DNA from: Opitutaceae bacterium
GTDB lineage: Bacteria > Verrucomicrobiota > Verrucomicrobiia > Opitutales > Opitutaceae
Direction of reading: 5' to 3'
Assembly (NCBI GenBank): GCA_018667915.1
Contig: JABIRI010000055.1
Span: 1 to 57,063 of the forward strand
Length of the DNA: 57,063 nucleotides
In this document: one piece after another, positions 10,983 to 48,759 of the stretch
Position numbering within the stretch: the stretch's first letter is position 1
How the letters are laid out: each line of letters opens with the position of its first letter
The notes under the pieces: model-generated
What the model was told of the DNA's origin: nothing
What the model saw: the letters and a program-made list of their open reading frames with translations, nothing else
Database searches by the model: none
Position numbers and translations under genes: made by a program

Positions 10983-11011
10983 GAGTTTGTCACCATTATG
11001 GTGACAAACTC
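10983..11011. repeat. Palindrome family, copy 1
   Basis: Perfect 14-base arms (GAGTTTGTCACCAT and its inverse) around a central T at 10997. It lies between the TPR gene and the radical SAM gene. The ATG at 10998-11000 inside it opens the longest frame of the radical SAM gene. The preceding 180 bases are C- and T-rich with few G on this strand. Confidence 0.93.
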
Positions 11012-12255: not shown

Positions 12256-12278
12256 TTTGTCACCATAATGGTGACAAA
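12256..12278. repeat. Palindrome family, copy 2
   Basis: Perfect 11-base arms TTTGTCACCAT and ATGGTGACAAA around a central A at 12267. It lies 19 bases after the radical SAM stop codon. Relative to copy 1 it has the opposite central base, so the two copies bracket the gene in inverse orientation. Confidence 0.93.
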
Positions 12279-12413
12279 AACGATTTTCACCGCGTCAGTA
12301 ATAACCACTCCCAAGTCACTGATTTCTCGAGGATCTCCCATCAATCTCCCGAAGCCGATTGGGCAAAGTCACCTAATAGGTTACTTTGGGATAAATATCC
12401 GGATTCTGATTTC

Positions 12414-23710: not shown

Positions 23711-23735
23711 TTTGTCACCATAATGGTGACAAACT
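23711..23735. repeat. Palindrome family, copy 3
   Basis: Perfect 12-base arms (GTTTGTCACCAT and its inverse) around a central A at 23723, in the purB-pfp intergenic space, 88 bases after purB and 215 bases before pfp. The left flank is again C-rich. Confidence 0.93.
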
Positions 23736-37486: not shown

Positions 37487-37505
37487 TGTCACCATTATGG
37501 TGACA
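37487..37505. repeat. Palindrome family, copy 4
   Basis: Perfect 9-base arms TGTCACCAT and ATGGTGACA around a central T at 37496; the outer bases differ from the other copies. It ends seven bases before the HTH start codon. GGTGA within its right arm (37499-37503) sits nine bases before the start codon and could serve as ribosome-binding site, so the palindrome may control translation or transcription of that gene. Confidence 0.92.
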
Positions 37506-37512
37506 TTCAGCC

Positions 37513-37878
37513 ATGAGCACCCTTCCCGTTCCCTCTCACCCCAATTTGGTCGCTACCTTAATTGATGAACTAGCTCAAGCCGCCATGGTTGGCACCAAGG
37601 AGTTACAAGCCAGGTATCGCCGTTCCCGACGCCCCGCCCATGTCCCTTGTCGGCAACCGGGCAAAACCACACCCATGTGGAATAATTTGGTGGAAAATCT
37701 GCGCATCGAACTAGCTCAGCGCGGCACCCAGGCGCGTTTAGCCAGATACATGGGGCTCCCGCGGCAGCGCATTCATGATTTCCTCAAAAGCAACAGCCGG
37801 ATGCCGGACGCCGAAACCACCCTTCGTCTCTTCCACTGGCTACTGGAGCGCCGCTCCGGCCGCGACCCCAGCCTGTAA
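37513..37878 (+). CDS. Small helix-turn-helix protein bracketed by palindromes (121 aa)
   Basis: The N-terminal half is helical (LVATLIDELAQAAM) with a basic linker YRRSRRPAHVPC. The C-terminal half, about residues 55-110, looks like a lambda-repressor/XRE-type helix-turn-helix: NLRIELAQRGTQARLARYMG, then LPRQRIHDFLKSNSRM, and a closing helix TTLRLFHWLLERR. It should bind DNA. Palindrome copy 4 ends 7 bases before its start and copy 5 begins at the last base of its stop codon, so it is the natural candidate to bind the palindrome and regulate itself. No close named family is recognised; binding is inference. Confidence 0.75.
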   Translation: MSTLPVPSHPNLVATLIDELAQAAMVGTKELQARYRRSRRPAHVPCRQPGKTTPMWNNLVENLRIELAQRGTQARLARYMGLPRQRIHDFLKSNSRMPDAETTLRLFHWLLERRSGRDPSL

Positions 37879-37904
37879 GTTTGTCACCATTATGGTGACA
37901 AACT
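37878..37904. repeat. Palindrome family, copy 5
   Basis: Perfect 13-base arms (AGTTTGTCACCAT and its inverse) around a central T at 37891, beginning in the HTH stop codon. A second small hairpin AACTC-TTTT-GAGTT (37901-37914) overlaps its right end. The copy is in the same orientation as copy 4 and also lies upstream of dusB. Confidence 0.93.
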
Positions 37905-37968: not shown

Positions 37969-39078
37969 ATGCGCATCGGTCCCTACGAACTCTCATCTTC
38001 TCTTTTTCTCTCACCACTGGCGGGCTATACCAACTTGCCCATGCGGTTGACGGTGCGGGAAATTGGCGGACTGGGCTGGGCGACCACTGACCTCGTCAAC
38101 GCGCGCTCTTTGCTCGAACGAAACCGCACCGCGTTAAAACTCGTCGCGACTTCCGCAGAGGATAGCCCGCTCGCGATTCAGCTTTTTGGCGCCGTGCCGG
38201 AAGAGATGCGTGATGCCGCCATCATGTGCGAAGAGATGGGGGTGCAGTCCGTGGACATCAACATGGGTTGTCCCGTGCGCAAGGTTGTCAACGTCGGCGG
38301 TGGTTCGGCCATGATGACCGAACTCGATAAAACCGCGGCACTCGTGCGCGGCATGATCGATGCCGTAAAAATCCCCATCACCGCAAAAATGCGACTTGGC
38401 TGGGACGAGGATAATCTGACTGCGCCCAATCTAGCCAAGACCCTGGAAGACGCGGGTTGCGCCGCGATTTTTGTGCATGGTCGCACCCGCGCACAGGGCT
38501 TCTCCGGTCGCGTAAATCTGGATGGCATCCGCACCGTTGTTGAAGCGGTGAAAACGATTCCCGTCGTCGGCAACGGAGACGTCACAACACCGGAAGCGGC
38601 GAAGCACATGATGGATGTAACCGGCTGCACGGGCGTGAGTGTGGGACGCGGCGCCTTCTACGATCCGTGGATTTTCAAACGCACGGCGCACTTGCTCGAA
38701 ACGGGCGAACTTCTGCCAGAACCGGACTTCACCGAACGTATCCGCGTGCTGCGGCTGCACTTTGAACGCTACATTGAGTTTTATGGCGAAGAGCGCGGTG
38801 CGAAGTTCTTCCGTAAGGTCGCCCCGTGGTATGCCAAACGTTTCGGTCCGTCGAAACCGTTCAAGCGCGACATCATCAAAATCAAGTCCCGCGCCGATTT
38901 CGAGAAAGCCCTCGCTGAATACATCACTTGGCGCGAGAAATTCTGCGACGACGAGGGTGCCTTGCTAGCCAAGTATGCACCCGGCCCGATGGTCGCTTCC
39001 TTTCTGCGGGACGAGGATGATCCGGTGTTCCAACGTGAAGGGATTCCCGTGCCCCGGGGACCGGTGGACAATTGGTAG
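37969..39078 (+). CDS. dusB: tRNA-dihydrouridine synthase
   Basis: Start at 37969 (369 residues). Dus family features: LSPLAGYTNLPMRLTVREIG, the tRNA-binding DINMGCPVRKVVNVGGGSAM with the catalytic Cys, KMRLGWDE, VHGRTRAQGFSG and the FMN-site VGNGDVTTPEAAKHMM. It reduces uridine to dihydrouridine in tRNA with NADPH and FMN. Overall order is DusB-like. The gene converges with the response regulator gene, with a hairpin element between them. Confidence 0.9.
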   Translation: MRIGPYELSSSLFLSPLAGYTNLPMRLTVREIGGLGWATTDLVNARSLLERNRTALKLVATSAEDSPLAIQLFGAVPEEMRDAAIMCEEMGVQSVDINMGCPVRKVVNVGGGSAMMTELDKTAALVRGMIDAVKIPITAKMRLGWDEDNLTAPNLAKTLEDAGCAAIFVHGRTRAQGFSGRVNLDGIRTVVEAVKTIPVVGNGDVTTPEAAKHMMDVTGCTGVSVGRGAFYDPWIFKRTAHLLETGELLPEPDFTERIRVLRLHFERYIEFYGEERGAKFFRKVAPWYAKRFGPSKPFKRDIIKIKSRADFEKALAEYITWREKFCDDEGALLAKYAPGPMVASFLRDEDDPVFQREGIPVPRGPVDNW

Positions 39079-48682: not shown

Positions 48683-48759
48683 GGTGGACGCAACAGGACT
48701 CGAACCTGTGACCTCTTCCGTGTGAAGGAAGCGCTCTAACCAACTGAGACTATGCGTCC
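48682..48759 (-). tRNA. tRNA-Val (anticodon CAC)
   Basis: Reverse strand: acceptor stem GGACGCA with TGCGTCC, D-arm with CAGTTGGTTAGAG, anticodon stem CTTCC/GGAAG with loop TTCACAC giving anticodon CAC (reads GUG, valine), T-arm with ACAGGTTCGAGTCCTGT, discriminator A at 48685 and an encoded CCA at 48682-48684. All parts are canonical. Confidence 0.95.

Follow-up and report, generated by a model that had tools for sequence, protein, structure and literature searches.

The window analysed here, that is, the whole stretch of 57,063 nucleotides from an Opitutaceae bacterium, carries on its + strand, at positions 37513–37878, an open reading frame for a 121-residue protein with a predicted lambda-repressor-like helix-turn-helix (HTH) domain. 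This gene is framed by two palindromes, neither of which is assigned a strand. The upstream one, TGTCACCATTATGGTGACA, spans 19 nt (37487–37505) and ends 7 nt before the ATG at 37513, while the downstream one, AGTTTGTCACCATTATGGTGACAAACT, is a perfect palindrome of 27 nt (37878–37904) whose first base is the last base of the HTH stop codon. The centre base read on the + strand is identical in both. The spacing and orientation claimed for the palindrome at each end of the gene in an earlier note on this DNA are confirmed exactly. A dusB-like dihydrouridine synthase gene follows on the same strand (37969–39078, +). The earlier note had also proposed that the palindrome may supply the ribosome site of the HTH gene. 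The motif GGTGA does lie before the ATG (37499–37503, nine bases 5' of it), but several relatives read GGTTAC in the core, and the palindrome therefore has no general role as a ribosome site.

The window protein matches no Pfam or NCBIfam family above the curated cut-off. Its HTH matches in Pfam are to YdaS (PF15943; 18.2 bits against a threshold of 30) and HTH_3 (15.2 against 23), and in NCBIfam a HigA-type match (E 0.031; 14.1 bits, cut-off 47.7) was the only one obtained. At E values up to 0.01, YdaS was matched by 44 and HTH_3 by 27 of the 72 family members scanned; the likeness to YdaS is a weak profile match within the HTH. The AlphaFold2 model of the window protein (mean pLDDT 83.5, pTM 0.57) displays a long N-terminal helix (residues 10–38) followed by helices 54–66, 72–80, 84–93 and 100–114, of which 84–93 would be the likely recognition helix if the fold is lambda-repressor-like. 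VIA-align placed residues ~46–118 on C proteins and on lambda repressor at Z 5–7, and scores of residues ~50–117 with the POU, C-protein and lambda-repressor folds reached Z 8, values that may reflect only a common arrangement of helices. A Foldseek search of the PDB with the model returned no chain at E 0.001, and a PDB profile search gave nothing below E 0.1. Neither Pfam/NCBIfam-type profiles nor the model and the fold comparison revealed a catalytic domain in the 121 residues, the matches being of HTH type only, and no transposase or recombinase domain was found in the gene product by profile searches.

Conservation of the framed gene

Within the family, 101 of the 200 genomes sampled have a relative of the HTH gene, as do 8/8 of the genus. 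At class level the profile matched in 21 of 286 sampled genomes, 15 of them from the same family, and the six matches outside it were weaker and covered the HTH part only. We collected 74 homologous loci from records of Opitutaceae, Opitutus, Opitutia/Opitutae, related genera and Verrucomicrobia, together with one record of Akkermansia muciniphila, and counted a gene as framed when the same 17-nt palindrome stood on both sides within 260 nt, with at least 7 of 8 pairs in each copy and at most 2 mismatches between copies. Framing on both sides was found for 55 of the 74 homologues and for none of 959 placements drawn at random within these loci. The centre of the upstream palindrome is at most 40 nt away from the estimated start in 37 of the 55 framed loci, and that of the downstream palindrome is at most 60 nt from the stop in 50. 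Of the 19 homologues left unframed, 11 show a palindrome of this class on one side, and for 8 of the 74 none of the class is seen on either. Apart from these 8, the objection named in the earlier note itself, homologues in genomes that lack the palindrome, is largely answered by variant palindromes. A further thirteen loci of the same genus (L094–L106), which are weaker homologues, mostly paralogues, and were scanned apart from the 74-locus set, showed palindromes on both sides in 8 cases, on one side in 4 (L094, L097, L103, L104) and on neither in 1 (L101). Paralogues of one genome carry different half-sites, for example GTCACCTA, GTAACCTA, GTAACGTA, GTCACTTA, GTCATCTA and GTTCGTA. Judged from these comparisons of sequence, the family has conserved the palindrome framing, which is not a recent insertion.

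The same data bear on the alternative raised by the earlier note, namely that the 418-base block is a transposable cassette which moves as a unit and has the palindromes as its ends. Such a cassette would account for palindromes at both ends of the block, for paralogues in one genome that bear palindromes of their own, and for the fact that dusB is not found within 700 nt downstream in 45 of the 74 homologues, all with room on the contig. However, in 28 of the 74 loci the HTH gene is followed by dusB (the remaining locus being at a contig end), a DCC1-like gene lies upstream in 6/6 of the dusB-linked loci of the same genus, and a BLAST search of the block against its own genome showed that the palindrome alone matches elsewhere, the HTH gene being single copy. 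Since this synteny is coupled with the lack of any transposase domain in the profile searches, the cassette reading is not supported, and we regard it as very improbable.

Locus L070 (genome G159) has the appearance of a decaying locus: its HTH gene has an open frame but no palindrome was detected next to it, and the match to dusB 3' of it is broken up into three overlapping fragments. A phage origin of the gene was rejected, with 0 relatives confirmed in viral contigs, as was membership of a known defence family: of four proteins scanned with PADLOC, three, including the window protein, remained unmatched, and a paralogue gave a match at E 0.015.

Covariation of protein and palindrome

Core types among the relatives of the window protein include GTAACC, found in G064 (a genome in one contig that belongs to the genus of the window genome), and the GTCAACTA type. 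The distance between half-sites is predicted by protein identity (Mantel rho −0.63, p 0.001), and the 11 half-site types require 14 label changes on the protein tree as against a shuffled mean of 30.3, a number as low being reached in 0/200 shuffles. At single positions, half-site base 5 agrees with residues 86 and 89, both within helix 84–93 of the model, in 56/56 loci: where the base is A, residue 86 is A, Q, S or T and residue 89 is Ala (9/9), and where it is C or T, residue 86 is Arg (47/47). The base-A loci form a single clade on the protein tree, so that this correlation amounts to one evolutionary event. The three top residue–base associations (residue 73 with base 3, 96 with base 6 and 44 with base 3) are not confined to helix 84–93 and hence indicate that relatedness inflates the residue–base correlations. 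With 55/74 homologues framed and the palindrome type tracking the protein type, the HTH protein is very probably the reader of the palindrome family, and the proposal of the earlier note to this effect is well supported at the level of sequence. A literature search covering titles and abstract openings, and few subscription papers, yielded no published description of such an HTH–palindrome pairing.

Distribution of the palindrome copies

The genome to which the window belongs (4.28 Mb in 361 contigs) contains 44 exact copies of TGTCACCATNATGGTGACA, and 55 matches, these 44 included, when up to 3 mismatches are allowed; the reversed control gave 0. Within the window, the 21-nt palindrome pattern was matched 5 times at up to 3 mismatches as compared with a shuffle mean of 0.00, so that its recurrence is not due to chance. 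Besides the two copies that frame the HTH gene, three dispersed ones, none with an assigned strand, lie at 10988–11006, between divergent genes and 5' of a radical SAM gene; at 12258–12276, with the radical SAM gene on one side and an SRAP-domain gene on the other; and at 23713–23731, 5' of a phosphofructokinase-family gene.

Of the 52 sites in the window genome with at most 2 mismatches, 50 are intergenic, one is within a predicted ORF and one is at a contig edge. By crude gene calls, the intergenic sites are flanked by tandem genes in 25 cases, by convergent genes in 14 and by divergent genes in 11. Sites within predicted ORFs are more frequent in relatives, amounting to 5/43 in G064, 3/16 in G090 and 4/13 in G111, counts in which some of the underlying gene calls are low-scoring. 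Copies also form arrays, spaced 66–68 nt and 78 nt apart in the window genome and exactly 90 and 124 nt apart in G064, and the number of copies at one locus differs between species. The G064 arrays lie between convergent genes at L145 and L147 and comprise five copies at 90 nt, one of them with a mismatch, and three copies at 124 nt.

If the protein were a conventional autoregulated repressor in control of some 50 promoters, this would be in keeping with the XRE/lambda-repressor type of fold, with a palindrome near its own start codon and with the conservation of site positions described below. Operators of promoters, however, should avoid convergent regions, and the palindrome sites do not: 9 of 36 intergenic regions with sites in the window genome are convergent as compared with 17 of 109 without, which is not the depletion that operators would show. 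In this comparison of intergenic regions by gene orientation, no bias of the dispersed sites towards promoter-bearing regions was detected, and the genes conserved beside the sites have no common theme. The same two observations bear on the possible control of dusB, pfp and the radical SAM gene that the earlier note suggested. We consider a promoter regulon unlikely. An uneven spread over the G064 chromosome was likewise not detected (KS p 0.79, 32 hand-collapsed positions), and clustering of the palindromes in one part of that chromosome was rejected on this basis.

A different core is seen in genome G135, where 24 matches were obtained at up to 2 mismatches and all ten listed carry TGTCACCAATCTGGTGACA in one orientation or the other; the innermost triplet of this core is not self-complementary.

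Conservation of site positions

Many positions of the sites are retained among genomes whose palindromes differ. In three genomes of the same genus, site regions that share an immediate neighbour gene with a site region of the window genome number 9/16 in G090, 6/10 in G111 and 11/33 in G064, the expected numbers being about 0.6, 0.4 and 1.3. These counts include the HTH locus itself (2, 1 and 2 regions, respectively) and, in G064, two regions that match a single region of the window genome (cysteinyl-tRNA synthetase/HemB). G064 shares these positions despite its different core, since all 43 of the sites found there have TGTAACC/GGTTACA arms, 42 of them exactly. The conserved neighbours encode cysteinyl-tRNA synthetase/HemB, RecQ, an S1-domain protein, MnmE, NDK, a ketoacyl synthase and transporters, a mixture of functions. 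Inspected by eye, the intergenic regions with conserved sites are otherwise little alike except near gene starts, for example in the S1-domain gene leader and where the cysteinyl-tRNA synthetase region ends, and the intergenic DNA of the same-genus genomes compared is too diverged for empty-site footprints to be recognized.

The arms extend beyond the conserved core. At the recQ locus the palindrome is present in 4/4 genomes with outer arms that are all different and yet pair for at least 3 nt past the core. Arms of at least 13 nt occur at 22 of 49 sites of the window genome as against 4.1 by shuffling, an expectation derived from column make-up, and at 18 of 43 sites of G064 as against 5.9, arms of at least 15 nt in the latter numbering 11 as against 1.6. 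In G090 (16 sites) and G111 (12 sites) the excess amounts to a weak trend. One site of the window genome, with an arm of 29 nt, lies at the beginning of a contig and may be an artefact of assembly. Outer-arm pairing is unexplained by the binding of a dimer to duplex DNA; selection for a hairpin or template-switch correction may be its source.

Arms that pair while varying would be expected if the functional form were an RNA or a single-stranded hairpin, such as a terminator or an mRNA end. Template-switch repair or correction at palindromes, however, could create pairing arms without selection, and other properties of the sites fit a hairpin poorly. A T-rich tract follows the stem at just 8/49 sites of the window genome, 3/16 of G090, 1/12 of G111 and 0/43 of G064, counts on which an intrinsic terminator was rejected. 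The innermost triplet is symmetric in most cores of the 74-locus scan, a symmetry that the loop of a hairpin does not need. The centre base displays no clear bias with respect to the direction of transcription (13 A and 11 T in the window genome, 10 A and 6 T in G064), as would fit recognition of double-stranded DNA. A hairpin as the functional form therefore seems improbable to us. A known RNA family was also tried and rejected, the sole match in the window at the Rfam gathering level being a tRNA at 48685–48759 (− strand).

Comparison with known systems

Opitutus terrae is a member of Opitutaceae. In PMC3733652, on repetitive extragenic palindromes (REPs), GTAG repeats are reported in this species, and REPtrons are described as RAYT genes framed by REP palindromes, with repeats interspersed between genes regardless of orientation; the REP–RAYT layout is also treated in PMC3116915. 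REP/REPIN and RAYT systems have in common with the arrangement studied here the short, intergenic, family-specific palindromes, the linked gene framed by the repeat, the several families per genome and the extragenic occurrence in many copies (44 exact; 50 of 52 sites intergenic). They differ in that the palindromes described here have a conserved inner core with variable outer arms, and in that the framed 121-residue protein has HTH-type matches only and no HUH/Y1 domain. The layout thus looks like that of REP–RAYT but without the transposase.

These likenesses would suit a population of REP-like mobile palindromes that the HTH protein helps to spread or to maintain, its gene being framed as the RAYT transposase genes are in REPtrons. 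The clusters at regular spacing in both the window genome and G064, together with the variation between species in copy number at one locus, point in the same direction. Against it, no catalytic domain was found in the HTH protein, and GTAG/CGTC tags, searched as four words up to 8 nt from the stem, gave 2 hits over 49 sites of the window genome and 6 over 43 of G064, no more than at random places. The palindrome was near none of the 29 listed Y1 transposase loci of the window genome, G064 and G090 (~1.5 kb on either side). Moreover, degenerate copies are few, 44 of the 55 matches at up to 3 mismatches being exact, and many positions are common to species with different cores. We hold such a mobile population to be rather unlikely, and its stricter form, a REP mobilized by RAYT, was rejected for lack of the tag, of a Y1 domain and of RAYT adjacency. 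The window genome does contain five Y1-transposase (RAYT-like) genes (L253, L258, L261, L263, L267) with open frames of 310–337 residues, none of which adjoins the palindromes.

XRE/lambda-repressor-like autoregulators such as C.Esp1396I, CylR2 and Cro share with the window protein the predicted fold, over residues 53–117, and a palindromic site near their own start, whereas the sites described here flank both sides of the gene and include about 50 dispersed ones without promoter bias. MatP with its matS sites and Noc bind sites chromosome-wide, each with tens of nearly invariant palindromes per chromosome that are not bound to promoters. The present sites would be comparable to theirs, except that the copies in G064 do not depart from an even spread and that several palindrome families occur in one genome.

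Proposed role of the protein and its sites

The framing and its conservation, the covariation, the dispersal and the kept positions lead us to propose, with a probability of roughly 0.7 for the explanation as a whole, that the HTH protein is a dedicated reader of the palindrome, acting at both borders of its own gene and at about 50 dispersed block or boundary sites. The protein would bind double-stranded DNA as a dimer, with one recognition helix in each half-site, and would occupy both borders of its gene, most likely lowering its own expression. Autoregulation, which the earlier note had suggested, is plausible in view of the upstream palindrome that lies so close to the estimated start in most framed loci. 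The protein would further occupy some 50 chromosomal sites, nearly all intergenic, where the bound complex would probably serve as a block or boundary, in transcription or in chromosome organization, and not as the operator of a dedicated set of promoters. We infer that a boundary or block fits the dispersed sites best and a promoter regulon less well.

More tentatively, and with considerable doubt on our part, the palindromes might form a self-maintaining population, kept by a non-catalytic protein, in which dozens of sites would change together with the specificity of the protein. With positions kept, cores rewritten and arms re-made as new perfect inverted repeats, active copying or correction at the sites would then be implied.

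If this last reading is true, small HTH proteins, each framed by its palindrome, would co-evolve with chromosome-wide sets of nearly identical sites. The system also raises the question of how a single small protein and about 50 scattered sites come to change in concert. The many natural protein–site pairs in which residues and half-site bases have changed together would make a specificity code readable and testable. A REP–RAYT-like layout without a transposase would show that palindromes can frame a gene and be dispersed independently of transposition.

Further palindrome families

A second palindrome, TGTTCGTANTACGAACA, was found at up to 1 mismatch in 8 copies in the window genome (G000), 16 in G020, 18 in G064, 24 in G090, 12 in G128, 10 in G145, 1 in G111 and 0 in G159. 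The copies in the window genome lie on contigs C43, C89, C114, C218, C248 and C302. A paralogue of the HTH gene stands beside this palindrome in G064, G090 and G128, with a copy upstream in all three; TGTTCGTANTACGAACA is also present downstream of the paralogue in L105 and L106, and in G064 the downstream copy has one mismatch. A search with the paralogue of G000 and G020 gave only proteins that were already known, no cognate HTH gene for TGTTCGTANTACGAACA was detected in either, and the prediction of a TGTTCG-type HTH gene in the window genome failed in that search. The pairing between protein and palindrome is therefore not strictly one to one.

A further palindrome, GTNACCTANTAGGTNAC, has 20 occurrences in G064, all GTCACC, and frames one paralogue (L095). 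The window genome contains three matches to it, one of which is the mixed palindrome GTCACCTAATAGGTTAC at positions 12368–12384 of the window, ~90 nt 3' of the dispersed copy at 12258.
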